NCBI GenBank assembly: GCA_963965975.1
Contig: OZ014417.1
Location: 2,089,821 to 2,153,820 of the forward strand
DNA length: 64,000 bases
Direction of reading: 5' to 3'
Source: Xestospongia bergquistia
Taxonomy: Eukaryota; Porifera; Demospongiae; Haplosclerida; Petrosiidae
Shown here: one piece after another, positions 2,421-64,000 of the stretch
Layout: each line of letters starts with the position of its first letter
How positions within the stretch are numbered: position 1 is the stretch's first letter
Made by a program: the position numbers and the translations under genes
Notes under the pieces: generated by a model
The model's database searches: none
What the model saw: only the letters and a program-made list of their open reading frames with translations
What the model was told of the DNA's origin: nothing

Positions 2421-2446
2421 CTCTTAAACTTTCAATCAAGTAGCTA

Positions 2447-2457
2447 GGGTGGAGCTC
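2447..2457 (-). promoter_or_regulatory. conserved upstream element GAGCTCCACCC
   Basis: Read on the minus strand this is GAGCTCCACCC, 26 bases before the start codon of the 1506-2420 gene. The same element or a one- or two-base variant occurs at 721-731, 1320-1330, 3102-3112 and 4186-4196, each at or near the 5' end of a family copy. It is either a core promoter / 5' UTR element of this family or a passive part of the duplicated unit. Confidence 0.45.
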
Positions 2458-3109
2458 AAGAACAATGCAATTAAATAAGTGCAAGTAGTAATTGCTGAAT
2501 AATGAACACCAAATTATTGGTTTATTTCCGTTTCGCTAAATCGCCCTTGTGGTCTGAAGGGTTGCTTGTGTGGGTATCATGAAACCTTTTGTAATTCCTT
2601 CAGAAGGTTGAACAGCATTCCAAAATTTACACGGTGTCACCTATACTGAGTTCTACCAGACTCTAACTTAATTGTATACTCACAGTAGAAAAGACCAGAT
2701 AACTAGTCTGTAGGGCTGAATGCACTGTCATGAGAGCATCTAGTAGTTCCAAAAAGTATATGCAGAATGATAATATGATATAGTGTTCCATCAGTTGATA
2801 TTCCATCTACTTCAATGATTGTCACAAGATTCTCAAGATTGAGAGAGCAATATATTCATCAATAGCTATCTTTATTAAATGCAAACAAGAGGCAGTTTTT
2901 TTAACAATTACTATAATATGTACATGTTTTGTCTTATAACATTTGACATCACTATTACACAAAGTGGAAATGTCAAACTATAAGTTATCAATAAAAGATC
3001 ACAGCATCTTAATCAATTTGGAAAAATTAGTGACCTTTTCTATCTAAACAATACTAACAAGCTCATGTTTCTAACCTTGGTTTTATATAGAATTATATAG
3101 AGGGTGGAC

Positions 3110-3147
<38 letters not shown>

Positions 3148-3272
3148 GTCAACTGACATATGATATATATATATCACTTGTATATGTCTTGCTAACAAAT
3201 CAATACACTCAACAAACAGAACATGCATATATTATATTATATTACAAAATATTATACAAAACAATTAATGTT
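2458..3272. other. spacer between tandem membrane genes
   Basis: I see no convincing gene here. The stretch holds a TA microsatellite (about 3113-3142) and an isolated GGGTGGACCTC element (3102-3112) with no family start codon beside it. That may mark the 5' edge of a further lost copy. Confidence 0.5.
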
Positions 3273-4169
3273 TTATAATCCATTAGAATCTGGTATGACA
3301 AAACTGTCTTTGATTTCTTGTTCCTCAAATTTGTTCTTGTTAGAATTGGATGGACGTCTTATTGCTAAACTCCACGGCATAACAAACACTGATAGTAAGG
3401 TAAAAAACAGTGCAATATATGTGAAATAATCATGAATTTGTATCCCCATAATATAGTATCTGATATTAGTATCTGACATTGTTAGTGTACAAATAATAGT
3501 AAATAGGAAAGCAATCCATTGTAAGATATAAGTACCACATCGACGACATTTGTTACCATTAGCTAATTTGATAATGATGAACAATGGAACAGTGAAGAGT
3601 AATGGAAAGAATTCCATTAACCCTCCAGCTAGTGCTGCAGCAACTGGAAAGTTAAAGTTGAATTTCCTGCAGTCAATAAGTAGACCATCAGAAGAGTTTG
3701 AACAATTGATAGGACCGTCAAAATTAGTTAAGTTCTCATTATAAAAGAAACAATCAAATCCAACTTGTGTCTGATCACATTCATAACTTCTTTCCACTAG
3801 TAAGACATTGAAAAATATTGCAGCAATATAGGCAATGATAATAATCTGTTCAATTGTTACTATCATCAGTGTCCACATTGGGAAAGGCTTCTTGAACAAC
3901 AGTATCATTAATTTACCGTCTCTTTCTTCACTATCAATGACCCAATCACCAAAAAATGATTTAGCAAACTGTATTTGAAATTTAGTTATCTTCTTTGCTC
4001 TCTCTATCTTCTTTTTCAATCTCTCATTGTTGTTGGGATGAACAGATCTTTGAGCAGACGAAAGATAGCAAAATTGGAATGCTAACAAAGCCACAATAAT
4101 GAAAATAGGTAGAATTACAAGTAGTATAAATAACAGCATATCTACAATTTCGTAATAAACATACTTCAT
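3273..4169 (-). CDS. multi-pass membrane protein of a tandem family (paralog 3)
   Basis: A single-exon gene of 298 residues, very similar to the gene at 1506-2420 over the whole length and a clear tandem duplicate. It shares the MKYxYYEIVD start, the HPNNNERLKKK basic stretch, FFGDWVIDSEERDGK, five hydrophobic segments, and a loop with CDQTQVGFDCFF and PINCSNS. It diverges in the first membrane helix (IDMLLFILLVILPIF against VDWLLMLVIIFLPIV), in the loop after DCFFY, and in the last 25 residues. The element GAGCTCCACCC (4186-4196, minus) is 16 bases before the start. Function is unknown; the topology suggests a plasma or endomembrane protein with one disulfide-bonded luminal or extracellular loop. 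Confidence 0.8.
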   Translation of the reverse strand: MKYVYYEIVDMLLFILLVILPIFIIVALLAFQFCYLSSAQRSVHPNNNERLKKKIERAKKITKFQIQFAKSFFGDWVIDSEERDGKLMILLFKKPFPMWTLMIVTIEQIIIIAYIAAIFFNVLLVERSYECDQTQVGFDCFFYNENLTNFDGPINCSNSSDGLLIDCRKFNFNFPVAAALAGGLMEFFPLLFTVPLFIIIKLANGNKCRRCGTYILQWIAFLFTIICTLTMSDTNIRYYIMGIQIHDYFTYIALFFTLLSVFVMPWSLAIRRPSNSNKNKFEEQEIKDSFVIPDSNGL

Positions 4170-4327
4170 CTTGAATATGAACTATGGGTGGAGCTCATTA
4201 AATTGCAAGCTATGCAATAATAAGTGGGCGAGGTTATTATTGATTATTAAACGTTTTTCAACAATAATTGATACACCATATATGAAAAGTTATTATATTA
4301 TTTGATCCAACGAAAAAACAAGTATAA

Positions 4328-19059: not shown

Positions 19060-19935
19060 TACAAACATTACTATAATTTACAAAATATATCATACATTAT
19101 TATAACAGACATGATTTAAATAATAATTGTTAGTAAATAACACTCATCAAGATCATAAATGTACTACTGTTATCTTTGTCTTCACAATTTTTCTTCATTG
19201 GATAGCCATTCTATACTAGTGGTGGTATATCATAATATGCTAGGTCAAGATTGAGGTTAGTGGTTCAATAAAATCCACTACGAGTACTCAGGTCAGGATT
19301 AATATAAGATTAGTGGTTCAGTAAAGCCCACTAGGAGTATGCTTGTTGGTATGGTATGATACTATACTACTATCATTTAGAGATTTAAAGAGATTATATT
19401 GTGTAGCCAGATAGTAAGAAAATGACTTGAAAATATATTGGATAAATCTGTACTGTGTATATAATATTAATTCTCTGTTCAGTTAGTACACTAGTTGTAG
19501 CTAGAGTTGTCTAAGTGAGTAGTTACCCATTGTTTTTACAGTAACACAATTGTATGGAGCATAAATATCACTAGGCTATAATGGAAATTGATTCTTTATC
19601 CAACTTACGTTTCTAGATCCTAAATCTTGAAACCCAAAGGAAGTACATGAAATCTGTCCTCTTCCAAAGTGTCCTCCTGGACATTATTCACTTTCACATT
19701 GATTCTCTATCTATAGTTTCGTATACTTCGTACGCATTCTTATAAATGTTTATAATTACTTTATTGCAAGCTGAGATTACTGATGCGTCTGCCAAGACTT
19801 GGCCCATAAGTTTATCAGCACGGAAGTCTGGCCTCATAATTTAGATTGTTACGCCCCTTCTTATTCTCGCCCCATTGAGCGCTAAGCATTCACGTCCTTC
19901 TTACTGTTCTTTAGTTTAAGCAGTGTTATCACAAA
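19060..19935 (+). other. intergenic region, nudix-gene fragment and leader exon candidate 1
   Basis: At about 19190-19250 the sequence matches 42140-42185, inside the last exon of the NUDT6-like gene (CTTCATTGGATGGCC and flanks), a displaced fragment. Near the end, TTATCACAAA followed by GTAAGTCGATGCATCCA (donor at 19936) is almost identical to 30236-30258. It is the best candidate for the untranslated first exon of the first Roc-COR-Death locus. The transcription start is not visible. Confidence 0.4.
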
Positions 19936-20534
19936 GTAAGTCGATGCATCCATCCATAAAATTAATCATCCTATTATTAGTTAGCTATTATATAGCGGTG
20001 AATAGAACCCCATCTCCTAGTTAGCTAAGACAAGTTATTCCTTACATTGTAGGTGTTTTTTGTGTAAAGTAAAATTGATATTTAAACAGGCGGTATTAGT
20101 GCAAATCAAGTCTGTACATAATGTATAATATATATACATGATTATGTATCTATAATGTAGATAACCAACCTTTCTAAAATAATTAAGGTTATCTTGGTGC
20201 ACATTAGTTCATGCACAATTTGTAATTATGTTTAATTATGTTTCTAATGTCTGAAAATAAGTTTATTTTATTAACAGTCAATTTTTCAATGATGGATACA
20301 TGAAGTATGTTATAGGTCAAGCCTGTAATATTTAGTACAAGTTTCTTGTGTTGTCTGTTTCATTGATAAAATAAAGACAGCATTAAATTTCATTGTAATT
20401 TTGAAATATCACAGTAAGGACTTTTGTTGCAGACAAAAGTTTGTAATTCTAACTTCATTTTGTTTAGAAAGTCCTATTTTGCATGTTGTAGCTTTTATTC
20501 ATTGTTCATTAATTTATAATTTCTCTTTTATTAG

Positions 20535-20537
20535 ATG
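20535..20537 (+). other. three-base candidate exon consisting of ATG (locus 1)
   Basis: The site reads TTTTATTAG / ATG / GTAAGT. The same arrangement with homologous flanks is found at 31481-31483. It would be the start codon isolated as its own exon, upstream of the array of single-codon candidates. It is seen directly as sequence; its use in splicing is inferred. Confidence 0.45.
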
Positions 20538-22047
20538 GTAAGTGTAATAACTATTTTGAAGCTGATTTTATAGTCTCATTCTGTAATCCCTCTCTGGTGA
20601 TATTCTACATGAACCTTTACTCTTCTCTATTGTTATATATGGGACTAAATAATAGGGAGTAAGTTCAATTAAGTTAGCTTATTTGGAGTGAGCCTGCATG
20701 AGTAATAAATTAAATGTTTCTTGTATAATCATTTATTTGTCCAAAGTTTTACTTATGTTAAAGTCTAGTGCCAGAATGGAGGACCAAGTGCAAGGTCATT
20801 ACTTTAATTAAAGCTGATTTTTAGATTACCTAATCATTATGTATTAGTCATAAACATAAATTTGATTTAATGAGCTGTACCATAATAAGGCTCACTCCTT
20901 TGAGATTATATTTGATAATGTTCTAATACAACATGCATGTCATTTAATCTTTTTCGTGTTCTATTTTCTTTATATAATGCTCTCACCTTATCTGCATCAA
21001 TTATAGATTATTGTAAGTACATAATTATTACATTAACTTTGTTAAGTAATTGAATACGCACTGTTTGTGTATCAAGCTAATTTGAATGTACTTAAAAGTT
21101 GCTATTAAACAATTAATTTTTCCCCTATCATCATATTTGAACTTTATGTATCTTTCTTTCTCTTATTGATCTATCTCACTATAATGGCACATTCATTTGT
21201 TTAACCTGTATCTCCTGCTACTATTTAGATTGTGAGTAGATGAAAATTATAATAGTAATATTCAATATAATATATATTAAATATTTCTTTTCCATTTTAA
21301 TTCCCCTCTGACAACAACTTAACCTGTATTTTCTGCCATTACTTAGAGTGTAAGTAAATGTAATAATTGTGTTAGTAACCAGTGTAATGTATTGATGAAA
21401 TAGATTGTATCATTAATGTTCATATTTTTATGTATCATTCCTTTCCCTTTCTTAATGCCACTGTGATGACAGCTTCACTTGTATTTTCTCCCAATATTTA
21501 GTGTTAAGTAGATATAATAATTGTGTTAGTTAGTATAATGTCTTGAACAAGATTGTATCAATACTGTTCAAATTTTATGTATCTTCCTTTTTCCTTTTGG
21601 ACAACAACTTCACTTGTACTTTCTGCTAATATTTAGGTGGTAAGTAGAAATAATGATGACATTAGTAATCAGTATTATGTATGCACCAAAAATAGTTGAT
21701 TAGTTGATTTAACCAATATTATGGTATTTTAAGTTGTATATAATTCACTGACAAGTAGTAAGCATCATACTGTTCGTAACAAATATACAGCTTGTAGTCA
21801 TATAATTAATTGTCAGAGATATTGTTTAATGCCTCATTAGTTAGAACAATAATTTTCAAAGATGCTAGGCCTACGTGTGAGGTCTGTCACTATGGAATTT
21901 ATTGATTGGATATCCCTCTTTACCAGACACATGTCCTTTCTGAGACATCATTTGTTGAAGTAAAACAAATTATTAATTCCATAGTAGTTAGTACCCCAAA
22001 CAACATATATTGATAATAATTTTCAGTCTAATTGGTATGTATAAAAT

Positions 22048-22280
22048 GTGACCTGATTTGCAAAAAGAGACCACTTCTGTCAAAACATTTGTGACCTGAT
22101 TTGTCAAAAATAAACTGTTCAAACATCTCAAAAAATAGTTATGTATATACAGTTGTTGTATATGCATAACTATTCTATATATATACAAAACTGTTTTTAA
22201 TATTTTTAACATTGTTTTTTTATCACAAATCAGGTCACAAATATTTTGACAGAAATGGTCCTTTTTGCAAATCAGGTCAC
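22048..22280. mobile_element. palindromic MITE-like element
   Basis: Nearly the whole 233 bases form a hairpin. The left arm begins GTGACCTGATTTGCAAAAAG and continues through CTTCTGTCAAAACATTTGTG; the right arm holds the reverse complement of both blocks (TTTTGACAGAA, then CAAATCAGGTCAC). The centre is a TATACA/TGTATA-rich loop. There is no coding capacity. It lies between two array units and accounts for part of the gap from 21639 to 22436. Confidence 0.6.
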
Positions 22281-24539
22281 AAATGTAGGTGATCACAAGT
22301 TGGTTTTAAAAAGCAATCTCTTTTAATAGTGTATCAATGAAGTAGATCATATTATTAATATTCAAAATTTATGAATATTTTTTTCTTAATGATAATCTGA
22401 CAACAACTTGACCTGTATTTTCTGCCACTATTTAGGTGGTAAGTAGAAGTAATAATTGTGTTAATAACCAGTGTAATGTATTGATGAAGTAGACTGTGTT
22501 GTATTTATTTTATATATCTTTCCCTTTTCCTTTCTTAATGCCACTCTGATGACAACTTGACATGTACTTTCTACCACTATTTAGGAGGTAAGTAGATGTA
22601 ATAATTGTATTAGTAACCAGTGTAATGTATTGATGAAATAGATTGAGTCATATTTTATATGTTTCCTTTTTCATTTCTCAATACCACTCTGACATTTATT
22701 TTCTGCCACTATTTAGACAGTAAGTAAAATTAATAATTGTGTTAGTAACCTCTGCAATGTGTTTATAAAATATAAAGACTATATCATAATTATTTATTTA
22801 TCTTTCCTTTTCTTTTTTTAATTCCACTCTTACGACAACTTGACATGTATTTTTTTCTACAATTTAGAGGGTAAGTAGATATGATAATTGTGTTATTAAC
22901 AAGTGTAACATATTGATGAACTAGATTATGTTATTAAATTTCATAGTTTATGTTTCTTTCTTAATGCCACCTTACTGACAATTTCACCTGGATTTTCTGC
23001 CACTATTTAGAAAGTAAGTAGATATGATAATTGTGTTAGTAACAAATGTAATGTATTACTGAAGTAGACTGTGTTATATTTTTATATCTTTCCCTTTTTT
23101 CTAAATGCTACTCTGATAACAACTTGACCTGTTTTTTCTGTCACCATTTAGGAAGTAAGTAGATTTATGAGTTGTGTTAATAAACAGTGTAATTCATTAA
23201 TTAAGATTGTGTCATTAATGGTCAAACTTTATGTATATTTCCTATTTCTTTTTTTAATGTCACTCTAATGCCAACTTAACTAATGTCACTCTAATGCCAA
23301 CTTGACCTGCCACTTTTTAGGTGGTAAGTTAAAATAATAAATGTTTTAGTAACTAGTGTAATATATTGATGAAGTACATTGTGTTATATTTTATGTATCT
23401 TTCCTTTTTTATTTCTTAATGCCACTTTGATGACAACTTGTCTTACATTTTTTGTCACTATTTAGAGGGTAAGGATATATGATAATTGTGTTAATAACCA
23501 GTGTAATATGTTGATGAAATAGACCGTATCATTAATGTTCAATTTTTTCGTATTTTTCCTTTTTCCTTTCTGAATGCTACTTTAATGACAAATTGTCTTA
23601 TATTCTTGTCACTTTAGAAGGTGAGGATATATGATAATTTCTGTTAATAACCAGTGTAATGTATTGATAATGTGTCATATTTTATATATCTTTTCTTTTT
23701 CATTTCTTAATGTCAACCTGATGACAACTTGACCTTTATTTTTTGCCACACTTTAGCTGGTAAGTAGAAGTAATAATTGTGCTAATAACCAATGTAATGT
23801 ATAGATGATGTATATTGTGTTATAATTTATGTATCTTTTCTTTTTCCATTTTAATGCCACTTAAATGAGAACTTGTCTTGTATTTTCTCCCTCTATTTAG
23901 ACAGTAAGTAGAAGTAACATTTGTAATGTATTAATGAAGTAGGCTGTATCATTAAGTTTAAATTTTATGTATCTTTTCTTTTTCTTTTCTTAATGGCACT
24001 TTGATAAAAAATTGAACTTTATTTCTGCCACTATTTAGGATGTAAGAAATATTTATATTAGTAACCAATATAATGTATTGATGAAGTAGACTGTAATATT
24101 AATGTTCAAATCTTAATTATCTTTTCTTTTGTCCTTTCTTAATGCGACTCTGATGAAAATTTTGAACTGTATTTTCTGCCACAATTTAGCTGGTAAGTAG
24201 AAATAATAAATGTATTAGTACTTAGCATAATGTATTGATGTAGTAGATTGTGTAATATTTTATGTATCATTTCCTTTTCCTTTCTCATTGCCATTTTGAT
24301 GAAAAAATTAAACTGTATTTGCTGCCACAATTTAGCTGGTAAGTAGAAGCAATGATTATGTTAGTAACGTGTAATGTATTGAAGTAGTAGACTGTATTAT
24401 TAATATTCAATTTTTTATCTTTCCGTTATCCTTATTTAATACCACTTTATTAAAAATCATTGCATACTGATATTAAAATAAACACTCGTGAAATTGCTAG
24501 CTGTATATGGATTAAAGTAATAGAACAACTATTATGTAT

Positions 24540-24975
24540 TATATTGAGTTCAGTGTTCCTGTTATTTCCACAGGAAGTTGTTAGAGATATAGTTGTGTTG
24601 TCACAAGTTGAAAACTGATAATATATATTCCTTTAATAACTTCTTCCATTTGAAATTTAATAACATATATTATTGTCTTTTCATTCTCTAGTTAAATGAA
24701 TATATGTAATTTTGCCACTATATAGATGGTAAGTGAAAATGATAATGTGTTAGTAACTAGTGTAGTGTATTGATGAAGTAAATTGCATCATTAATGTTAA
24801 AATTTATCTCTTTCATTTCTCCTTTCTTAATACCACTCTGATGACAACTTGACCTATATTTTCTGTCAATACTCTCCTAGAGAAAAGAAAAAAGATAAAG
24901 TGAGGTCAACATATCAGTTTAAAGGTCAATTCGTTTATTATTATATATTAATCAATCTTGAACATAAGAATGCCA
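24540..24975. pseudogene. scrambled fragments of the NUDT6-like gene inside array 1
   Basis: The plus strand at about 24540-24705 matches the minus strand of 42310-42480 (end of intron 5, CACAGGAAGTTGTTAGAG, and the first bases of the last exon TTCTCTAGTTAAATG). By contrast 24870-24970 matches the plus strand of 42690-42785 (start of exon 5 and the preceding intron). The two pieces therefore lie in opposite orientations. An array unit (ATG at 24726) sits between them. Confidence 0.55.
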
Positions 24976-27060: not shown

Positions 27061-29614
27061 CAAATATTATAATGGAGCTATTGATTCATTTTCGTCTTGC
27101 AGCCGAAGTCCGTACCAAGGAGGCTGTCAAGCATTTTTTTTTACCAGCAATGGAGATCCTAATGAAATTATTCATTTTCGTGCTGCTGAAGTCCATACCA
27201 AGGAATATGATCAGGCTGTCAAGTATTTTTTTTACCAGCAGTGGAGATCCTAATTAAGTTACATCTTGTATTTCCTACCACTAAGTTTACGCCATCAGGG
27301 TTGTAAAGCTTACATGGCATTGGAGGAAATTGTTACATGAAGGTTAGTTCAGCCATTTTATCACAATGAATCTGTCTGGAGGGGTTGTGAAGGTGTTGAT
27401 GCAAATAATATAATGAAGCTATTGATTCATTTTCGTCTTGCTGCTGAAGTCTGTACCAAGAAGTCAAAGCATTTTTAACCAGCAGTGCTGAAGTGTTTCC
27501 AAGATGCAGTCTCTCTGCATATTGTATTTTCTACCACTAAGTTTACGACACCAGGTTTTTTTTACTCATTTAGCTACAGCCATGGCCAGCCATCCTTCAT
27601 GTGAGCTTTTGAAATGTCCACTTTGTAATATGATTTGTCACAAATTGATTGTGTTATGCTCACTGTACCACACACTATGCTATGCAAGTGAATGTATCAT
27701 GATGTGCTCCAGATAGCCATTCTCCTCAGTATTTTAATATAAGCTAGTACACTGAACAATGGTAACAAAAGTCAGCTACTTATATAGAAACAAAAATGAC
27801 AGCTAAACTTTTAACCAAATAAGGTAAAAACAGAGATTTAACCAATCATGTTTATTACCAGACTGAGTGGTGCCATATTGATAGAAAGGTCTAAACATAA
27901 AACAACATTAGTAATAATGACCATATTGTTGGTCTTTTACATCTCTCCCATGTATATTACAATATAGGAAGACAAAAGTCTGGACAAGTAATTTCATTAT
28001 CTTCACCAGTACTAGTTACTGGTTAGCCTAACATTGTTAAAAGTTTAATATGCTTAGCTGTCATTTTATTTTATATAAGTAGCTGACTTTTGTTACCACT
28101 CTTTAGTATACTAGCTTATTTTAAGAAAGATTTATCTGAAAAAGGATGATTCAGTTAAGAGATCTCACAAGTAGCATTCTACATTTTTTCATTAATTTAG
28201 GATAGAGATCACCTCAGTGGGTTCTATTCTGACCTGATTGACCATTAATGCTATTTTGTTGTAATACTGCTTCTACTTGTGGTGTTTTCCCAAAATGTAC
28301 TAGATGAGGGTTAGTGAGGGTAGAAGGTTTGTGAATTCCCACTATAGGATGTACTCTTGGTTTGATACTATGCTACTAAAAGATATATATATATATATAT
28401 AAATACATAGCTAGTACTTTATTAAAATTACTATGAATATTTATTATATTATAGTTAATAACAATCCATTACTTAATTAATGTAGATACTTTACGGTTCA
28501 AGGAGACGTTAAAGAGTGTACCAGTCCTGGCTTAGTGTCTTTATCAGATCCCTTCTTTTTTTGATTGTACTAAGGAACTTCGTTAAGGCAGTCTTTTAAA
28601 GCAAGTCCGATTCATTCACTCAGAAAAATACTTCATACCAAGAGTTAATTATTGCATTATTAATAATATTCTATTATATAGATAGCTCTGGAATTCCAAC
28701 TAGTAGTACTAATCTTACATAACTATTATGTGTTTTGTTATCCACTACATTATTGTGTGTCATGACTTCCATTGAATGTATTGATTTTATCATAAACTTA
28801 ACTAAATCGAATAGGTCAAAAATTATATATCAAATTTGTGTTGTCAATTAAAGTACATGAAGTTATTAAAGGTACATCCTTACCTTGTTTCTGTTGTTTT
28901 TGGCATTACCATCCTAACATCCTTATTCAAATGAACACTGTTAATATCATATTATGTCAAGAGCTAGTGACAGTTCTGGAAGATTGTGTTACAAGAAACT
29001 CTCAATACCAGTGCTAGAATGTTGAAACGAGGCAAATTCGCTGATTTGTATGTGGATTTAAGGGTTGTGGTCAAATCATGTAAGTAAGATATGGCAGTTG
29101 TCTTCACAATAATTATGACTATTTTGTCGGACTATTTTGTCTTTTTCAATTCTAATTCCATTATTCTCTAGACATGCATCTAGTGACATATCTGCTCGAG
29201 TGGATCATTCTCATTTTCTAATTACATTGTGAAGAAAAGCCAACCAACTTTCACAAGCCTACTGCTGAGGAAGAAGTTTGGTTTAAAGGAACAGGGAAGG
29301 TAAGTTTTAAAATAGATTAACTAATCAATTATAAATTATACAGGGTACAAAAAATAGATGCCCTTAAACCTATTGCCTCACACTGGCATATGTTGGGTGT
29401 AGCACTTGAAGTCCCAGAGGATGCCCTGCAGAATGTGTGTCAGAACCATGGTGCTGACCCTGATACAATGAAATTGTTGATTATGATTGATCACTGGTTG
29501 CTGCAGCTAAATGCTGATTGGGCAACACTAATAAAAGTCACAGAGGATCCTCTTGTCAACAATTTAAAGTTGCTGCTGACATTTGTAAATTTAACTGAAT
29601 CTATTGACATGTAA
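27061..29614 (+). pseudogene. decayed Roc-COR-Death gene (locus 1)
   Basis: Fragments align in order to the gene at 38705-41205. COR-domain pieces occur three times (27061-27165, 27166-27255, 27308-27715) with the FHFRLAAEVRTKE motif repeated. The end of the COR exon lies at about 28946-29075, the next exon at about 29172-29300, and a still-open Death-domain exon at about 29345-29614 (WHMLGVALEVPEDALQN...MIDHWLLQLNADWATLIK). The GTPase domain is absent. Frameshifts, internal duplications and at least one inserted element (27741-28117) break the rest. It is the paralog of the second locus, with its own leader and array 1 upstream. Only the Death-domain exon keeps coding character. Confidence 0.65.
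27741..28117. mobile_element. MITE-like element with long terminal inverted repeats
   Basis: The left end AAGCTAGTACACT...GGTAACAAAAGTCAGCTACTT is mirrored at the right end (AAGTAGCTGACTTTTGTTACC...AGTATACTAGCTT). Inner arms also match (ATGACAGCTAAACTTTTAAC against its complement). ATTTTAA flanks both sides and may be the target duplication. It is inserted in the COR remnant. No coding sequence is seen. Confidence 0.6.
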
Positions 29615-31480
29615 CACTATAGATAGAGAGTTGTTGATTCCTACTTTACAACAATGCTGACCACAGTAATTGTACGTGAGTGCGAGTAAAGACTTGCCCC
29701 CCCCCCCCCCCCCCCAATAATTAGCAGTACCCAGCAACTTTATGCACAAAATCCCAATACCCCTCCTTACTATGCAAGTGAGCAGTGATAGAGAAGTGGT
29801 CCCAATTCCATATTGGTCTTTGGAACCTAACTATATTAATTTTGCATTAAAATACGATATTTTCTGCCTCTAAGAGCCTTCTGAGCTCATTTACACTGAA
29901 AAGCACTAAAAGCTTGAGAGAACTGCTATATGAATCTGGCAATTTAAAGTAGGTGTTTGCCCTCCTTCCTATTAATACCACTTATTGACTATAGGATTTT
30001 TGGCAGTTCTTTGATCTTTGAACAAGAGCTATACTTAAAGTTGACCAACCCTCCCTTCCCTCAGGGAGGAGGGGCCGATTACGCGAGACAGAAAACCTCT
30101 CCGGATTGCAATTACTTTTATTACGCCTCCTTTTAGTCTCAAAGTTAGGTACCTATCTATTGTGCGCTGAGCTTCTACGTCTTCTTGTCGTTGACTGTAA
30201 CTAGTGTTCTTTAAGGAACTTAATTTAGGCAGTTTTATCACAAAGTAAGTCGATGCATCCACCCAGAAAAGTAAGTAGTCATTCTTTTATTAGTTAGCTA
30301 GTATATATAGCAGTGAGTAGAACTCCATCCCCTAGTTAACTAAGAAGACATATTATTATTCCTTACATCAGTTGCTAGGATGTTTTTGTGTAAAGTAATA
30401 TTAGCCCTTAGATGCAAATTCGTTACACGCCCACCTTTATTTAAAAAGCACGCGGGATGTTAATTATAAAATATTTCTTATTTACCTTTTTTTATAAGTT
30501 TTACCTTTAACTTTTTAAAAAGCTTAACAATATGATATTCAATAATTACTACTATAAAACAATAATCAGTTTTTTGAAAATTGCTCAGAGGGAGAGAGCA
30601 GTGACAATTATGACTATGTTAATGATGATGAACTAGATAATGATGTCCTTCAGGTTGTTGTGTTCAGATGAATGTTTAAAAAAATGCCATGCTTGACTCA
30701 AACTCATAAATCATAACCTTTCATATATGATATATTCACATAATTACACAAGTTAAAAAAATACAAAACTACTAGCCTGTATTCGTTGCTAAGGATGGCA
30801 TGTGTGTACGAGTGTCCATGGAAATGGCCCCATAGGCAAGAATAATAAACATACCATAGTGGTTGATGACCTAAAGTAATTTGCTATTGAGAAAACAAAT
30901 TGAAGCACATATATGCTGGTTGTTTTCATCAACAAACTCCCGTTTTTTCACCTGAATCTTGTGGTTTTTAGGTGAAATAAATTAAATAAGCATGGTCCTC
31001 TATATTTTAACATGCAGATGGTATTAGTATAAATTAAATATGTCTGTACATAATGTATATATCTGCTACATGTATAATTGTATATCTGTAATATTGAAAG
31101 CCAAGTTTTTAAAGTTAACTTGATGCACATTAGTTCATGTGCGAGTTTATATATTTGTAGACTCTGTAAATAAATTTAGTTTATCTATAGTCAATTTTTC
31201 AGTATATGTAATAGATGCATGAAATATATTGTAGGTCAAGCTTATGATATTTAGTACAAGTTCATTGTGTGGTCTGTTTAAAATAAAAATAAAGTATATT
31301 CATTGATATAATTAGGCAGCATTAAATTTCATTATAATTCTAAAATAATACAATAGGATATAATAGACTTTTGTTGCAAACAAAAGGTGATAATTCTAAC
31401 TTCATTTTGTGTTTAGAAAGACTTACTTTGCATGCTATAGCTTTTGTTCATTGTTAATTAATTTATATTTTCTCTATTAG
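29615..31480 (+). other. leader region of locus 2
   Basis: This stretch contains a 19-base C run (29697-29715). The leader candidate ends TTTTATCACAAA with donor GTAAGTCGATGCATCCA (donor at 30245), followed by sequence homologous to 19.94-20.53 kb: a TTAGTTAGCTA block, CTGTACATAATGTATA and GACTTTTGTTGCA. Relative to locus 1 there is an insertion at about 30420-31000. An open frame on the minus strand at 30035-30262 is not supported by the homologous locus. There is no other gene. Confidence 0.45.
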
Positions 31481-31483
31481 ATG
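31481..31483 (+). other. three-base candidate exon consisting of ATG (locus 2)
   Basis: The site reads TCTCTATTAG / ATG / GTAAGT, homologous to 20535-20537. If spliced, it makes the start codon a separate exon. The downstream Roc exon starts in phase 0, so any number of three-base exons in between keeps the frame. Confidence 0.45.
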
Positions 31484-33579
31484 GTAAGTATAATAACAAC
31501 TTTAAAGCTGATTTTACAGTAATTTTCTGTAATACTTTTCTGGTGACATTCTACATGAACCTTTACTGGTCTCCTCTACTGTATATATGGCAACAATAGG
31601 GAGTAAGTCTAATTAAGTCTAATTAATTTTTGGAACATATGTACTAAATTTTAGCATCTTATGTATAATCATGTCAAACTATATGTCTGAATCTATTTAC
31701 ATTAATATAAGTCTAGTACCAAAATGTAGTACCAAAGTGTAAAAGGTATTACATTAAAGCTAATGTATGTTTTAGTTTCAGACCTCATGATTATGTAATA
31801 TTTAGTTAATGAGTTTATAAGTCTTATTTAACTAACTTTATAATTCTAAGTTAGTTATAAATACAAATTAAGTTAAGGTTAACTTCTTGAGACTACATTT
31901 GATAATTTTCTGATTCTACATATCATTTAATTCTTTTCATATTCTATGTCTCTACACAATGAATCCTCTCACTACATCTATATCAATTTAAGAATACTGT
32001 AAGTAATATATCTTAGAAGTAGATTTTATATTAATATTAAATTTATATTAATCTTTTCTTTTTTCTTGATTAATCCATTCTAATAACTAGTTGACCTTTT
32101 TTCTGCGACTATTTAGAATGTAATTATTGTGTTATTAATGTATTGAAGAGATAAATTGTATCATTAATGTTCAATTTTAAAATATATCTTTCCTTTTTCT
32201 TTTTAATGCCACTCTGATGACAACTCGACCTGTTTGTCTTCAACTATTCAGTATGTAAGTAATTATAATAATTATGTTAGTAACTAGTGTAATATATCTT
32301 AGAATGTGATTTTATATTAAAGTAAATTTATATTAATCTTTTCTTTTTTCTTGATTAATGTCATCTAATGACTAGTTGACCTTTTTTCTGCGACTATTTA
32401 GAATGTAATTATTGTGTTATTAATGTTTTGAAGAGGTTAATTGTATCATTAATGTTCAATTTTAAAATATATCTTTCCTTTTTCATTTTAATGGCACTCT
32501 GATGACAACTTGACCTGTTTGTCTTCAACTGTTCAGCCTGTAAGTAATTATAATAATTATGTTAGTTACTAGTGTAATATATCTTAGAAGTAGATTTTAT
32601 ATTAATATTAAATTTATATTAATCTTTTCTTTTTTCTTGATTAATCCATTTTAATAACTAGTTGACCTTTTTTCTGTGACTATTTGGAATGTAATTATTG
32701 TATTATTAATGTATTGTAGAGGTCAATTGTATCATTATTGTTCAATTTTAAAATATATGTTTCCTTTTTCTTTTTAATGCCACTCTGATGACAACTTGAC
32801 CTGTTTGTCTTCAACTATTCAGTATGTAAGTAATTATAATAATTATGTTAGTAAGTGTAATATATCTTAGAAGTAGATTTTATATTAATATTAAATTTAT
32901 ATTAATCTTTTCTTTTTTCTTGATTAATGTCATCTAATGACTAGTTGACCTTTTTTCTGCGACTATTAAAAATGTAATTATTGTGTTATTAATGTATTGA
33001 AGAGGTTAATTGTATCATTAATGTTCAATTTTAAAATATATCTTTCCTTTTTCATTTTAATGGCACTCTGATGACAACTTGACCTGTTTGTTTTCAACTA
33101 TAAAGCCTGTAAGTAATTATAATAATTATGTTAGTAACTAGTGTAACATATCTTAGAAGTAGATTTTATATTAATATTAAATTTATATTAATCTTTTCTT
33201 TTTTCTTGATTAATGTCATTCTAATAACTAGTTGACCTTTTTTCTGTGACTATTTAGAATGTAATTATTGTGTTATTAATGTATTGAAGAGGTCAATTGT
33301 ATCATTAATGTCAATTTTAAAATATATCCTTCCTTTTTTTTTCAATGGCACTCTGATGACAACTTGACCTGTTTGTCTTCAATTATTCAGCCTGTAAGTA
33401 ATTATAATAATTATGTTATTAATTTATTGAAGAGGTCAATTATATCATTAATGTTCAATTTTAAAATATATCTTTCTTTTTTCTTTTTAATGGCACTCTG
33501 ATGACAACTTGACCTGTTTGTCTTCAAATATTCAGCCTGTAAGTAATTATAATAATTATGTTAGTTACTAGTGTAGTAT

Positions 33580-34819
33580 CATAGATAGTATAGACTATGT
33601 AACCGGGATTGGAAATGCCCACGCATTTCCGGTACTCTCCTTGTCATCTCAAGCATAAATATCATATAAACTATAGCTTGTAGTGCTCCTGTTTCTTCGG
33701 AAACAAGCATGTAGTATTTGAAATTTTTACTTTAATTAAGTGTTACCTTATAATAAATACTTATTTGAAATAATTATTATTTATCTGATAATTAATTTTA
33801 CTGATAATGTAAGACAAAAGTCTTTTTGCTAGTATAATATACGTTATACTACAAGGAGCTCTTTTAGATGTAGGTTTTAAAATTGGTACACCAGTTGCTA
33901 CATAAGTGTTAGATAGTGCATACCTCCTGTTTAAATGATGCTCTTGGCCTGAACCAGGAAGATTTGTATCAACTTTTGCAACCAATCTAATAAATGACCT
34001 GTCATCTGATTATTTAGGCAATAATCCCAAGGAATGGAATCTCTCTCTTAGCGCAGACAAGGAATGGAAAGGAGCATGAATATGATAAATCAACTTTGCA
34101 TTTGAAGAGATACAATTAAAGACCTGGGAATTGATCTGTGCTTTCTATAGTACAGTCACTTACCCATTTGAAAGGAAATTAATTATTAATAATTATTTAG
34201 TACTGAATATGTACGCGTATTTTGTATCTTACATAACTATGACAGGAGATTGCCATAGCAAATAATAACAAGCTAAATCAACACAGAAATTATTCATCTT
34301 TAAATAAGAAGCTGTAATTTATGTCTACATAACTTAAAACAATGGCTATAGTCCCAAAAGTGCACCTATATCTTATGTTGTTCTAGTGTTTTCCATAAGA
34401 ATAGCGCAACTTTACTAACATAAAAACAGTTTAAACCAATGTGTTCTTATTTGTTCTAAATAATTGGTCCTAAACCTTTTAGTAATAATATTGCTGTAAG
34501 AAGAAAGAGCGACAAAAGTATTTTTAGTGCCATTTTCATCAATAAATAACTAATTTAAAAGTGGATGTCTGTATTATTGACTATTTTTAATAATAGAATA
34601 TAAAGAAGAATATATAGTCAATGTGTTGATAAATAAAAATAACACTAATGTCTTTATAGGAATATATAATAACAGCATAAGTATGTCTAGGTTACAATGT
34701 AAGGTAATAAAAATTAATTGATTTTTTTGGACACGGAGTGCGTTTTCAAATGTTCATTCACTTCTATGGGATCACGTGATTTGTTTCCAATCCCAGTTAC
34801 GTAGTCTATACTATCTATG
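33580..34819. mobile_element. non-autonomous DNA transposon (about 1.24 kb) in array 2
   Basis: Terminal inverted repeats of about 35 bases start CATAGATAGTATAGACTA and continue through GGGATTGGAAA at both ends. GTAGTAT occurs on both sides (33573-33579 and 34820-34826), consistent with a 7-base target duplication. Just inside the left end, GGAAATGC and GCATTTCC form a small hairpin. The interior is AT-rich with no convincing protein; a 74-codon minus-strand frame at 33761-33985 has no recognisable domain. It splits an array unit cleanly, so it post-dates the array expansion. Confidence 0.7.
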
Positions 34820-37800
34820 GTAGTATATCTTAGAAATAGATTTTATATTAATATTAACTTTATATTAATCTTTTCTTTTTTCTTGATTAATCCATTCTAA
34901 TAACTAGTTGACCTTTTTTCTGAATGTAATTATTGTGTTATTAATGTATTGAATAGGTCAATTGTATCATTAATGTTCAATTTTAAAATATATCTTTCCT
35001 TTTTCTTTATAATGGCACTCTGATGACAACTTGACCTGTATTTCTTCTACTATTTAGAGAGTAAGTAATTATAATAATTATGTCAGTAACTAGTGTAATA
35101 TATCTTAGAAGTAGATTTTATATTAATATTAAATTTATATTAATCTTTTCTTTTTTCTTGATTAATGTCATTCTAATAACTAGTTGACCTTTTTTGTGAC
35201 TATTTAGAATGTAATTATTGTGTTATTAATGTATTGAAGAGGTCAATTGTATCATTAATGTTCAATTTTAAAATATATCTTTCCTTTTTCTTTTTAATGG
35301 CACTCTGATGACAACTTGACCTGTATTCCACTATATAGGAAGTAAGTAATTATAATAATTATGTTAGTAACTAGTGTAGAATGTGATTTTATATTAATAT
35401 TAAATTTATATTAATCTTTTCTTTTTTCTTGATTAATGTCATTCTAATAACTAGTTGACCTTTTTTCTGCAACTATTTAGAATGTAATTATTGTGTTATT
35501 AATGTATTGAAGAGGTCAATTGTATCATTAATGTTCAATTTTAAAATATATCTTTCTTTTTTATTTTTAATGGCACTCTTATGACAGTTTGTCTTCAACT
35601 ATTCAGCCTGTAAGTAATTATAATAATTATATTAGTAACTAGTGTAATATATCTTAGAAGTAGATTTTATATTAATATTAACTTTATATTAATCTTTTCT
35701 TTTTTCTTGATTAATCCATTCTAATAACTAGTTGACCTTTTTTCTGCAACTATTTAGAATGTTATTATTGTGTTATTAATGTATTGAAGAGGTCAATTGT
35801 ATCATTAATGTTCAATTTTAAAATATATCTTTCCTTTTTCTTTCTAATGCACTTTGATGACAACTTGACCTGTATTCCACTATAAAGGAAGTAAGTAATT
35901 ATAATAATTATGTTAGTAACTAGCGTAATATATCTTAGAAGTAGATTTTATGTTAATAGTAAATTTATATTAATCTTTCCTTTTTTTTGATTAATGTCAT
36001 TCTAATAACTAGTTGATCTTTTTTGTGAATGTAATTATTGTGTTATTAATATATTAAGAAAGTCAATTGTATCGTTAATGTTCAATTTTAAATGTATCTT
36101 TCCTCTTTCTTTTTAATGCCACTCTAATGACAACTTGACCTGTATGCCACTATATAGGAAGTAAGTTGATATAATAGTTATGTTAGTAACTAGTGTAATA
36201 TATCTTAGAATGTGATTTTATATTAATAGTAAATTTATATTAATCTTTTCTTTTTTCTTGATTAATGTCATTCTAATGACTAGTTGACCTTTTTTCTGCG
36301 ACTTTTTAGAATGTAATTATTGTGTTATTAATGTATTGAAGAGGTCATTAATGCTTAATTTTAAAATATATCTTTCCTTTTTCTTTTTAATGGCACTCTG
36401 ATGACAATTTGACCTGTTTGTCTTCCACTATTCAGCCTGTAAGTAATTATAATAATTGTATTAGTAATATATCTTAGAATGTGATTTTATATTAATAGTA
36501 AATTTACATTAATCTTTTCTTTTCTTGATTAATGTCATTCTAATGACTAGTTGACTTTTTATCTGCGATTATATAGAATGTAATTATTGTGTTATTAATG
36601 TGTTAAGGAAGTCAATTGTATCATTAATGTTTAATTTTAAATGTATCTTTCCTTTTTCTTTTTAATGGCACTCTTATAACAACTTGACCTTTTTGTCTTC
36701 AACTATTCAGCCTGTAAGTAATTATAATAATTATATTAGTAACTAGTGTAATATATCTTAGAATGTGATTTTATATTAATAGTAAATTTATATTAATCTT
36801 TTCTTATTCTTGATTAATATCATTCTAAGGACTAGTTGACCTTTTTTCTGCGACTATATAGAATGTAATTATTGTGTTATTAATGTATTGAAGAGGTCAA
36901 TTGTATCATTAACGTCCAATTTTAAATGTATCTTTCCTTTTTCTTTTTAATGCTACTCTGATGACAACTTGACCTGTTTGTCTTCAACTGTTCAGCCTGT
37001 AAGTAATTATAATAATTATGTTAGTAACTAGTGTAATATATCTTAGAATGTGATTTTATATTAATCTTTTCTTTTTTCTTGATTAATCCATTTTAATAAC
37101 TAGTTGACCTTTTTTCTGTGACTATTTGGAATGTAATTATTGTGTTATTAATGTATTGTAGAGGTCAATTGTATCATTAATGTTCAATTTTAAAATATAT
37201 CTTTTCTTTTTCTTTTTAATGGCACTCTGATGACAACTTGACCTGTATTCCACTATATAGGATGTAAGTTGATATAATAGTTATGTTAGTAACTAGTGTA
37301 GTATATCATAGTAATATATTTTTTGTTAATAGTAAATTTATATTAATTTTTCCTTTTTTCTTGATTAATGTCATTCTAATAGCTAGTTGACCTTTTTTCT
37401 GAATGTAATTATTGTGTTATTAATGTATTAAGAAAGTCAATTGTATCATTAATGTTCAATTTTAAATGTATCTTTTCCTTTTTCTTTTTAATGCCACTCT
37501 AATGACAACTTGACCTGTATTTCTTCTACTGTTTAGATTGTAAGTAATTACAATAATTATGTTAGTAACTAGTGTAATATATATTAGAATGTGATTTTAT
37601 GTTAATAGTAAATTTATATTAATCTTTTTCTTGATTAATGTCATTTTAGTAACTAGTTGACCTTTTTTCTTAATGTAATTATTGTGTTATTAATGTATTA
37701 AGAAAGTCAATTGTATCATTAATGTTCAATTTTAAATGTATCTTTTGTTTTTACTTTTTAATGCCACTCTGTTGAGAACTTGACCTGTATGCCACTATAT

Positions 37801-38704
37801 AGGATGTAAGTTGATGTAATAATTATGTTAGTAACTAATATAATTTATTGATGAAGTAGATATTGTCATTGATGTTTACATTTGATGTATCTTTCTTTTT
37901 TCCTTTCCATATTAATCACATTTTCATGACCAATTGATCTGTATTTTCTGCACTATATAGGATGTAAGTAGATACAATAATTGTGTTAATAACAAGTGTA
38001 ATGTATTGATGAGAAGTTGTTGTCATTAATGTTCAAGGGTTATGTATCTTTTATTTTTCTTTCCCTTATGACAGCATGACCTTATTTTCTTGTAGTTGTA
38101 TATAATTATTGTGTTAGTAACCCTAGTATAATATCCTTTGGTGCCTTTTTAGGCATGCAGTAGCACTGCCTGTGTATAGAGATATCCTGGATTATATAAA
38201 TAATTGAATGTTTTGTTAAAACATGTCAAAGCAAATATTTTCATAAAATTAACACATCATTTACTTTGTATTACATTTTGTTTGGATTGCAAGATGAAGT
38301 CAACCTTTGCAAGGGCAAATGTAAAGAATCTTTCAGTCTGAGTGGTATGTAAGGATATACCATACACTGGGATTTATTGGCGAGCGTTAAAATTTGGCGA
38401 ATTATTGGCGAATTTCAGAAAATCGCCAAATTAAATGAGTTTATTAATTTATGACAATATATGTACTGCCATGTAGAGTTTAGATATCTTAGATATCATG
38501 CAGTGTTCAATCCATTTTAATGAACAATCCCTAAACAGACATTGCTACCACATACCTGATACCATTACAGCATAAGTTTATAATTGTTATTAATTGTTAT
38601 TCCTAGCTGACAAGTCTTTCACATCTTAATTAGCAATATCAAATTAGTTTTGATAAACATTTGTATGTTTTTATTAGTTACTAATATTATATATTTTTAT
38701 ATAG

Positions 38705-41205
38705 AGTGCTTATAGAAGAGCTCTAAAGGAGGGAAAGCTGGATATAGCATATGGACGCATGATACTCCTTGGTACAGCAGGTGTTGGAAAAACAAGTTTA
38801 AAGCGATCTTTGATGGAACTACCTTTTGATCCTAAAACAAACAGTACTATCATCTCTGATATCAGCTATGTTCAACCAGTTAATTATAAGTGGCATGCTG
38901 TGGATCCAGAAGAGAAATGGAAAGAAGTGACATCTGATGATGAGCTAAATGAAATGGCACAACTACTTGCTATGGTATATCATTCTAGTTCAACACCCAG
39001 ACCCCTACATAGCAAAGTAGCTGCCATAAGTCTTTATCCTATTTCTGCCATTGCTGCTATGATTAAAGATGTGCCATTAAATGAAGAGCAAATACATAAT
39101 ATCGAAAAAGAAACTATGGAGTCAATCTTTTCGAAGGCTATGAAACGTGCCTATAGAATGTCTAAAGATGATCTTAAGGAGATGAAACCTCAACCTCTCT
39201 TGCATATATGGGATTGTGGTGGTCAACCTGTCTTTCTTGAAATCCTCCCAGCCTTTCTTACACCTCGTACCATGTTTTTCCTCATGTTCAATGCATTGAA
39301 ATCCTTCAGTGAAAAGTGGCATTCAGTGATCAGTACTCAGGGAGTACAAGAGTTTGACGATGAAGTCAATGAAACTACACTGGAGTTGTTACTCAGCTGG
39401 ATGGCCAATATTCATAGTCATCTTATAGCATATGACAATGGTGCCATTCCAGAATACCCTCGTATATACTGCATTGGTACACATGGAGATCAATTGAATG
39501 AGCAAAAGAAGACAGAAGTGAAGACAGAACTTGAATCACATTACCAAGACAAAATCTTTGCACCACTTATTGAAGGTACCCTCATTATTGACAACACCAG
39601 TTCTGGTAAAGGGGAATTTGAAGATCCTAATTTTGCAAATTTACGAAAAGTCATTTGTAATTTCACTTCTGATAAGCTCATTGTTGAAACTCCAGTTAGT
39701 TGGGTTCTTTTCCGAAAGGTGATCCAGCGATATCCTAAGAATGTCATTGATCTTGAAGAAGCTCATGCTATAGGAGTAGCCTGCAAAATTCCTTCTGATG
39801 ATGTCCCCAAAGTCCTCCTATTTTACCATGATGTAGGAGTCCTGTTGTTCTACCCTCATATTGACGGCTTGCAGAATGCTGTTATCATTAATCCTAAATG
39901 GTTTGTGGATGTTCTTGGGAGGGTATTCACTTTAAAGGAAAGAGATACAGGGGCTCGTACATGGCATTGGAGAAAATTGCTTCGTGAAAAGGGATCTTAG
40001 TTCAGCCATTTTATCATGATGAATCTGTCTGGAGGGGTTGTGAAGGTCTTGATCCAAATGGTATAATGAAGCTATTGGTTCGTTTTCGTCTTGCTGCTGA
40101 AGTCCATACCAAGGAATATGATCAGGCTGTTAAGCATTATTTTTTACCAGCAGTGCTGAATTCTTTCCATGGAGATCCTAACAAAGTCCCATCTGGTTAT
40201 TTACAATATGCAGTCCCTCTGCATGTTGTATTTCCCACCACTAAGTTAACACCACCAGGTTTCTTTACTCGTTTAGCTACAACCATGGCCAGCTGTCCTT
40301 CATGTGAGCTTTTCTTTGATAATGGCATCTTTCGAAATCGTGTCACTTTTACATATGGTGTGTCTCAAATTGATCGTGTTATACTCACAGATCTACACTA
40401 TGCTATGCAAGTGAATGTATTACGATGTGCTCCTGATAGTCATTCTCCTCAGTCTTTTAATACTGTATGTCAAGAGTTAGTGCCAATTCTTGAAGATTGC
40501 ATTAGCAGAGTTAAAGAAACTCTTAATACAAGTGCTAGAGTATTGGATCAAGGCAAATTTTCTGTTCAGACCACAGAAGTTCGATTTGTGTGTGGATCTG
40601 AAGATTGTGGTCAACTCAGGTAATTATAGGATACAGTTATGATAGATGCCTTCAATATATATTATTATAACAATTTTGTCTTCTTTAATTCTAATTCTGC
40701 TATTCTTTAGATATGAATCTAATGGCATACCTGCTAAAATGAATTGTCCTCACTATCTTGTTACAGCAAAAGCTCAAACAAGTGATCTCACTCTTCATTG
40801 TGAAGAAAAGCCGACCAACTTTCGCAATCCTTCAGCTGAGGAAGGAGTTTGGTTTAAAGAGACAGGGAAGGTAGGTTTTAAAATAGTTTAAGTAATTAAT
40901 GATAAATTATATAGGGTACAAAACCAAAGAAAATAGATGCCCTTAATCAGCTAGCCCCCATCTCCTCACACTGGTTCAATTTGGGAGAAGCACTTGAAGT
41001 CCCATTTGATAAACTGGAGGGTGTGGATCAAAGAAATAACACAAATATGAACACTAACTTGTCAATGATGATTGAATACTGGTTGAAGCAGCCAAATGCT
41101 GATTGGGCTACACTAATAAAAGCTGTAGAGGGTCCTCTTGTTCAGCAAAAAAGTGTTGCTGATGACATTCGTAAATTTTTAGTGCAGCTAAGTAATGATA
41201 TATAA
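38705..41205 (+). CDS. Roc-COR GTPase with C-terminal Death domain
   Basis: Exons are 38705-40619, 40711-40870 and 40915-41205, about 788 residues apart from any N-terminus encoded upstream. The Roc GTPase shows the P-loop GTAGVGKTS, a G3 motif WDCGGQ and a G4-like THGDQ. The COR domain follows (WVLFRKVIQRYP...LEEAHAIG...VPKVLLFYHDVGVLLFYP...IINPKWFVDVLGRVF, then FRLAAEVHTKE...YFLPAVL). The last exon is a Death domain (WFNLGEALEVPFDKL...MIEYWLKQPNADWATLIKAV). Members act as GTP-regulated scaffolds; the Death domain points to apoptosis or innate immune signalling. The exon starts in phase 0 (AGT GCT TAT) with no good upstream ATG except the array. At 39990-40000 the frame breaks: TAG follows GGATCT, and the open frame continues at -1. 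Phases of the later exons need exactly that shift. Confidence 0.8.
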
Positions 41206-53510: not shown

Positions 53511-53606
53511 TGCCTTGATAATCTTCTTAGTAGTTTCTTCTGCTTTCTTTAGTTTTACTTGAGTTTCGAATCTCTAAGTTACTGATGTTGATCAGTGGAC
53601 TGTCTC

Positions 53607-54073: not shown

Positions 54074-64000
<9,927 letters not shown>

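Follow-up and report, generated by a model that had tools for sequence, protein, structure and literature searches.

Tandem candidate single-codon exons upstream of Roc-COR-Death genes in the genome of the sponge Xestospongia bergquistia

Can a gene be assembled in part from a long series of exons that are each one codon in length? This question is raised by a 64,000-nucleotide stretch of contig OZ014417.1 of the sponge Xestospongia bergquistia (GenBank assembly GCA_963965975.1, positions 2,089,821 to 2,153,820, forward strand), referred to here as the window. An original prediction, made from the letters of the window, described about twenty units at 20535-24728 (+) in which an acceptor AG is followed by three bases and then a donor GTRAG. 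We counted 20 three-base units and one six-base unit (YAG-N6-GTAAG, spacer ATTATT, 21007-21012) in this array, designated array A. The spacers read, in order, ATG GGA (ATTATT) ATT AGT GTG GTG GAG ACA AGG AAA GAA GTG AGG AAG CTG ACA GAT CTG CTG ATG, and as predicted no stop occurs among the triplets. Across 20400-24900 a spacer of three bases was found 20 times on the array strand, compared with three times for the other 15 lengths between 0 and 15 combined (the six-base unit included), and it was not found on the opposite strand. A chance origin of the pattern is rejected by these counts.

Comparison of the 16 full-length units of array A revealed a mean pairwise difference of 0.265 per site in the unit body and 0.689 in the triplet, which agrees with the prediction that the body has drifted and that the spacer bases vary freely; the difference in AG+GTAAG was 0.14 per site. 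The predicted spacing of about 130-145 bases holds in part: most later units recur at about 145 bases, but the first ones follow each other at 121, 351 and 222 bases. The prediction also implied that AG-NNN-GT should be more conserved than the remainder of the unit. This was moderately so in array A, where the splice core scored 0.929 and the body 0.811, with 57 of 111 body columns at least as conserved as the weakest core column, and clearly so in related arrays. Because the core of array A stands only moderately above its body, the strong evidence comes from the related arrays elsewhere in the genome.

Taken together, the patterns described below make it very probable that the units, which precede Roco genes, are single-codon exons spliced in series and that they encode a hypervariable segment at the N terminus. 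The claim of single-codon exons in series, already made in the original prediction, is supported by the exact spacer, the absence of phase-0 stops, frame closure, the hypervariability of the triplets, near-fixed splice signals, and the same-strand position upstream of Roc.

The spacer is exactly three bases in most sites. On the gene strand of six arrays, 166 of the 177 YAG-Nk-GTRAG sites with k between 0 and 15 had k = 3, and the opposite strand of these arrays contained one site at k = 3. On the gene strand of three further arrays all sites (27, 24 and 10) had k = 3, and the 7 kb added upstream of the first C5 array, most of it outside any array, had k = 3 twice and other k six times. The genome was then searched for pairs of the patterns TTAG-NNN-GTAAGT and YAG-NNN-GTAAGT, with the reversed pattern as the control. 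This returned 175 pairs at gaps of 81-111 bases (control, 8), 127 at 112-142 (control, 12), 24 at 142-172 (control, 4) and 309 at 172-202 (control, 4), the classes 112-142 and 142-172 sharing one gap length. Other spacers were searched in one gap class each: k = 2 gave 2 pairs at 81-111 (control, 1) against the 175 for k = 3, and k = 4 and k = 6 gave 2 and 1 pairs at 112-142 against the 127 for k = 3, with 89 (12 + 77) matches in one of the two reversed controls and 2 in the other. Arrays of two-, four- or six-base exons are rejected by these 2, 2 and 1 pairs. True ratchet points of recursive splicing, in which AG and GT meet with no base between them, are also rejected; the spacer here is three, and k = 0 occurred once in the six arrays.

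In order to place the arrays relative to genes, the 146-Mb genome was searched with the protein sequence of a Roc-COR exon from the window (copy B, described below), and 97 of 412 candidates were scored. Among these there were 50 matches with at least 40% identity, at 43 loci including copy B. Upstream DNA was inspected for nine Roc genes, copy B being one of them; C1:17.51M and C12:2.91M were chosen for their pattern matches and the other six by protein homology. Arrays were present upstream of five of those six (C5:2.261M, C5:2.277M, C10:1.40M, C11:5.667M and C1:11.019M), of which C5:2.277M is the tandem neighbor of C5:2.261M and was chosen after the latter had shown an array. Arrays at several Roc genes reject an association limited to one gene. 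The paralogues at C1, C5, C10, C11 and C12 have open Roc-COR frames; that at C1:17513587-17514876 lies in one open frame of 639 amino acids. Repeat periods vary by gene (about 100, 130, 140, 145, 201 and 205 bases) within the same design, and at C12 the unit bodies look unlike one another, yet 26 AG-NNN-GTRAG sites remain. A long TA/TG microsatellite (C12:2905250-2905420) lies directly after the first single-codon exon of that gene.

The same association was seen when clusters of pairs were compared with the 43 Roc loci. Among the matches listed, 21 of 43 array clusters lay within 20 kb upstream of a Roc match on the same strand, the number of matches per cluster being approximate. With the strand flipped the count was 1; random placement, in which roughly guessed values were used for the lengths of C4, C8, C14 and C15, gave a mean of 0.7 and a maximum of 4. 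Pairs at C4:4586657-4587813 (+) carry a TAA triplet, unlike the gene-linked arrays, and look like an unrelated tandem repeat; they were retained as misses in both the pair count and the cluster test.

The codon content of the arrays was analyzed in 235 triplets from nine arrays with donors GTRAG or GTRNGT. The two six-base units and other donors (e.g., AAT-GTAATT of array B) were left aside, as were matches within 20 bases of the previous one, a step that removes three overlapping AG-TAA-GTATGT readings in the second C5 array (C5b). Read in phase 0 the triplets contained no stops, compared with 15 in phase 1 and 48 in phase 2, counts that reject triplets split across codons. Column shuffles within arrays gave an expectation of 8.3 phase-0 stops and reached 0 in 1 of 5,000 trials, and when each distinct triplet of an array was counted a single time (n = 95) the expectation was 4.0 (P = 0.009); since the units were copied from one another, these figures overstate independence. 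Between unlike triplets of the same array, 1.5% of pairs were synonymous, compared with 3.1% after shuffling, and 0 of 1,000 shuffles were as low. By array, P was 0.034 for A, 0.046 for B, 0 for C1, C5a and C5b, and 0.047 for C10. The 235 codons include no Ala, Cys or Trp, and 2 triplets end in C; GCT, GCG, TGT and TGG are present among the other genome-wide pattern matches.

The ends of the arrays were inspected for frame, with first and linker exons placed by eye. The first exons of the C5 (ATG GCT AAA AGA TAT TAC AGT AAA AAT CCA/GTAAGT), C10 (ATG GCT CAA CAA CAA GAT CTT/GTGAGT) and C12 (ATG TCA ATA TCT CGT/GTGAGT) genes each finish on a complete codon (phase 0); A, B and C1 begin with a lone three-base ATG exon as their first unit. 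No first exon was found for C1:11.02M in the stretch examined. Linkers of 19 (C5), 25 (C10), 13 (C11), 16 (C1:11.02M) and 39 + 25 bases (C12) have sums of 3n + 1, and in these five genes two bases of the Roc exon precede its first whole codon. The Roc exons of B and C1:17.5M are apparently entered directly in phase 0. The C11 and second C5 arrays extend past the stretches examined, and the linker check covered the first C5 gene. Where ends were placed, the frame closes with whole phase-0 codons from the array, or with nothing. The predicted order would be MAQQQDL-RSLLHHPIFEP-AKRISTMED-VAYRKAL for C10:1.3995M and MSISR-EDDTPPENRRRRSERRHTEGTYRRIT-LKESYNDGPHIND-IYLSSMMKD-DVYQKAL for C12:2.905M.

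To compare the splice signals with the codon, units were detected by profiles in which the core was masked, the misses of which include fragments. Intact cores were found in 34/34 units of C5a, 27/27 of C5b and 11/11 of C1:11.02M (72/72 together), 11/12 of C10, 24/26 of C11, 18/23 of A, 64/86 of C1 and 17/35 of B, counts that lean upward because the units from which the masked profiles were derived had themselves been selected for the core motif. Pairwise differences per site were calculated from full-length units in eight arrays, C12 being left out. The triplet and body values were 0.69 and 0.27 for A, 0.57 and 0.23 for B, 0.66 and 0.31 for C1, 0.74 and 0.23 for C10, 0.63 and 0.16 for C5a, 0.68 and 0.09 for C5b, 0.55 and 0.07 for C11, and 0.70 and 0.06 for C1:11.02M. 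Thus, in the four arrays with bodies of 140-205 bases (C5a, C5b, C11 and C1:11.02M), the triplet is about 4 to 12 times more different than the body. Conservation of AG+GTAAG was 0.95-1.00 in C5a, C5b, C10, C11 and C1:11.02M, 0.93 in A and 0.80 in C1; in array B it was 0.51, under that of its body (0.79). In recently homogenized arrays the core stands hardly above the body (0.952 versus 0.927 in C5b) because most of the unit is alike and the codon is the exception. Two internal comparisons of the C1 array that share one segment gave differences of 0/63 and 1/63 in the core, 4/21 and 4/21 in the triplet, and 41/1205 and 39/1201 in the body, and a further one gave 1/54, 2/18 and 119/762, respectively. 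From these alignments, it looks as if selection, or a mutation process, is aimed at the codon. A plain satellite is rejected by the phase-0 stop deficit, the intactness of the core, and the variability of the triplet relative to the body.

How might such a gene be spliced? Each unit would be a full miniature splicing module, with a pyrimidine-rich stretch, an acceptor YAG, one codon and a donor GTAAGT. A tandem series of such modules would be preceded by a first exon, or by an exon consisting of ATG alone, and followed by the Roc-COR exon of a Death-domain GTPase gene, in many cases after one or two short linkers; the introns, mostly about 90-205 bases long, would be removed one by one. Exons of three bases are hardly long enough for exon definition to operate across them. 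We infer that the units are spliced into the mRNA and that this proceeds stepwise by intron definition: the donor of the upstream exon would join the acceptor of the first unit, and the GTAAGT lying three bases past the new junction would serve as the next donor. This would resemble recursive splicing, except that one codon is retained per step. Since each step would add a codon and leave a fresh donor, a segment of about 11 to more than 60 residues could be built at one residue per exon. All array introns would be in phase 0, so that the gain, loss or skipping of any unit would keep the frame. The resulting tail may be a fast-evolving recognition or regulatory segment; its variability would suggest a recognition or decoy surface.

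Several observations weigh against this reading, in addition to the upward lean of the intact counts, the dependence among triplets and the placement of end exons by eye. The frame closes equally well when the whole array is skipped. Units without an intact core make up 18/35 of B, 22/86 of C1, 5/23 of A, 2/26 of C11 and 1/12 of C10, and the C1 array has dead units despite an open Roc frame, so decay extends beyond broken genes. In the latest and longest C1 duplication the triplet differs at 1/63 sites, the body at 69/3663 and the core at 2/189, so that the codon shows no excess of variation over the body there. Three ATA units of C5b allow the overlapping AG-TAA-GTATGT reading. The synonymous-pair test gave P values of 0.15 for C11 and 0.28 for C1:11.02M (lower than shuffled, but unclear) and 0.92 for C12, where the proportion was higher. 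The C12 stretch also contains weaker candidates of 9 and 3 bases, which were not used. In the 7.7 kb inspected at the Roc gene C7:1942519 there is one isolated match but no array, and 7 of 9 pattern-match neighborhoods outside the window contained isolated matches only. Among the matches listed, 22 of 43 clusters do not lie within 20 kb upstream of a Roc match, including the largest (C7:1.871-1.885M) and ten at C1:13.3-17.3M. With domain maps made of the best 150 Death, 146 COR-A and 95 NACHT matches, no Roc, COR, Death or NACHT match among those listed explained the non-Roc clusters, the sole exception being a Death match at C1:12364133 (-); a single pair, at C1:12379607 (-), lies about 15 kb upstream of it.

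Three side observations concern the arrays themselves. The C1 array contains two copies, 97.9% identical, of a block of about 4 kb that comprises about 21 units (C1:17518959-17526940). The largest array seen, at C7:1871076-1884400 (-), comprises at least 96 pairs of single-codon units of about 115-120 bases, and no Roc, COR, Death or NACHT match on the same strand was found near it among the matches listed. The ten small clusters of the three-base motif at C1:13.33M-17.29M (+) lie far from Roc matches, and by eye many of them are alike after the donor; they are perhaps a second gene family with the same architecture.

Among the alternatives, the one that survives best retains the exons and differs in their purpose. 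Its main function would be combinatorial alternative splicing, with cells or individuals expressing specific in-frame subsets as a repertoire generator. Every subset would keep the frame, the codons are hypervariable, and flatworm micro-exon genes vary by exon skipping, as described in the available part of a report on them (PMC7653826); the strong, uniform donors and acceptors would suit constitutive inclusion equally. This alternative is possible, although we would not expect it to prove correct, and as it is a version of the favored reading the odds of the two overlap. An extended form is similarly speculative. It would combine dozens of tandem, homogenized single-codon exons with codons under strong diversifying selection; changes in length and sequence, residue by residue, with germ-line unequal crossing over and the cellular choice of in-frame exons as the two routes; and a role as a repertoire generator for recognition or immune-type Death-domain GTPases, with at least several hundred such exons in one genome and possibly a second gene family.

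The second alternative, which we regard as improbable, is that the array is one long intron whose units are a non-coding tandem repeat, acting as splice-like decoys or stepping stones, and whose triplets never enter the mRNA. It would account for a frame that closes with the array skipped, and the AG...GT pairs recall ratchet points (described in the accessible part of PMC8605326), but it leaves unexplained why the spacer is 3 and not 0, 2, 4 or 6, why phase 0 has no stops against 15 and 48 in the other phases, and why diversification affects just three bases. A relic satellite, in which one ancestral three-base exon and its flanking sequence gave rise by duplication to copies that now evolve neutrally, fits the decayed units of B and parts of C1, the lack of a Roc exon in A, the frameshift in B and the equal divergence of triplet and body in the most recent C1 duplication, but is very unlikely given 72/72 intact body-detected units in C5a, C5b and C1:11.02M and a triplet that, if neutral, should not exceed the body and does so about 4- to 12-fold in C5a, C5b, C11 and C1:11.02M.

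Serially spliced single-codon exons remain the favored reading, and within the window they would belong to two duplicated copies. The 5' leader exon of copy A likely has its end at 19911-19935 (+), with TATCACAAA before GTAAGT, and that of copy B (30220-30244, +) has the same ending; the regions 19911-20076 and 30220-30402 are 80% identical and have the TATCACAAA/GTAAGT boundary in common. The candidate lone start codon of array A (ATG, 20535-20537) is kept in copy B at 31481-31483, exon 2 (GGA, 20656-20658) has a counterpart with AG-GGA-GTAAGT at 31600-31602, and the six-base exon (21007-21012) corresponds to AATACT at 31993-31998; this ATG-GGA-six-base stretch (31481-31998 in B) is 69% identical between the copies. 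The 18 further candidate three-base exons of array A (21229-24728, +) lie mostly in the repeat of about 145 bases. One unit near 21502 is damaged, the donor register being lost (AG-TGT-TAAG), and a gap of about 800 bases (21640-22436) contains, by eye, an inverted-repeat insertion. The inverted-repeat element itself (22040-22295, by eye), with arms carrying CAAATCAGGTCACAAAT, resembles a short mobile element.

Array B spans 31481-37963 (+), upstream of a Roc-COR-Death gene. Its single-codon units (32117-37963, +) form higher-order repeats of about 286 bases, with the triplets CCT, GAA, GAT, TAT, AGA and ATT next to GTAAG donors and AAT next to GTAATT donors, which are weaker; of the 35 units detected by their body, 17 retain an intact core and the others are weak, mutated or cut. 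The original prediction, which suggested a possible helix before the Roc domain, missed array B in front of the Roc gene, the genome-wide family and the apparent decay of both window copies. The Roc-COR exon of copy B (38705-40622, +) has its acceptor TATAG directly before AGT, in phase 0. Pfam analysis of 38705-39997 identified Roc followed by COR (PF08477, E = 9.2e-12; PF16095, E = 1.9e-11), the domain order that defines a Roco protein. The reading frame shifts near 39997, so that the frame of the window copy is not intact, and Pfam found nothing in 39988-40620. A Death-domain exon follows at 40915-41205 (+; PF00531, E = 3.7e-5). In copy A, relics at 27311-29592 (+) match the COR end of copy B (27311-27739, 74%) and the stretch up to its Death exon (28953-29592, 69%); a comparison of matches longer than 150 bases gave no match to the Roc part, and Pfam assigned no family to the Death-like relic at 29321-29611. 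Because A lacks a Roc match of that length, B is frameshifted and about half of the B units are damaged, both window copies are probably decayed members of the family. Elsewhere in the window there are two adjoining, much alike open frames of about 300 amino acids (1506-4181, -), putatively for a multi-pass membrane protein; an open frame of 655 amino acids that is presumably Hsp70-like (51606-53573, -); and other tandem repeats with 45-base (45473-45965) and 76-base (59948-60786) units.

If the units are spliced as predicted, exon size has here been pushed to one codon in bulk. Dozens of three-base exons joined in order without exon definition would offer, in a single natural transcript, a direct test of the order in which intron-defined splicing proceeds and of its limits, and repeats in which one codon is up to twelve times more divergent than the bases around it would make a selection or mutation process readable from DNA. 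Such small exons are known to escape standard gene finders and read aligners; annotation may therefore lack the N termini of this family or give them wrongly, and the same structure may exist in other genomes.

A survey of open-access literature on micro-exons, recursive splicing and the expansion of Roco-Death genes in sponges brought up isolated cases and micro-exon genes but no series of single-codon exons, an absence that is weak evidence. PRDM9-type zinc-finger arrays consist of tandem units that are alike except at a few fast-changing functional positions, but there the unit is coding, whereas in the sponge arrays the coding part of a unit of about 140-205 bases would be only 3 bases. 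Isolated three-base exons are described, in the parts of the reports available, for Drosophila homothorax and mammalian VDAC3 and RPS24, the last with three micro-exons of 3, 18 and 22 bases (PMC7392893, PMC8374620, PMC11162997); as here, they are single in-frame codons, but those accounts give one such exon per gene and no series. Plant ultra-short exons, including 1-nucleotide exons in APC11 and VPS55 (the latter with conserved GTRAGT donors) and adjacent 5- and 12-nucleotide exons in rice, indicate that sizes far below the usual are spliced, but the sections seen describe one or two per gene, unlike the arrays (PMC4674806, PMC8831610). Ratchet points of recursive splicing, in the accessible text, have an acceptor and then a donor that are reused stepwise, as proposed here (PMC8605326). 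At these points acceptor and donor are juxtaposed, whereas the arrays keep three bases between them. Flatworm micro-exon genes (MEGs) mix several exon lengths, whereas here nearly all array exons would be exactly three bases, most lie in alike tandem repeat bodies, up to 64 units are found in one gene, the array of another locus extends over about 14 kb, and a Roc-COR-Death GTPase serves as host. In what is available of their description, the MEGs of schistosomes and tapeworms have repetitive runs of micro-exons with lengths divisible by three, one family was expanded by tandem duplication, and exon skipping varies the protein by a single residue (PMC7653826). Micro-exons are defined there as shorter than 70 nucleotides and divisible by three, a description that the predicted three-base (rarely six-base) exons fit, and the genes by at least 7 exons, half of them micro-exons in a run of at least 4, compared with the 11-64 in series predicted here (PMC7653826). 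The nearest known kind to the sponge arrays is the flatworm micro-exon gene class (PMC7653826).

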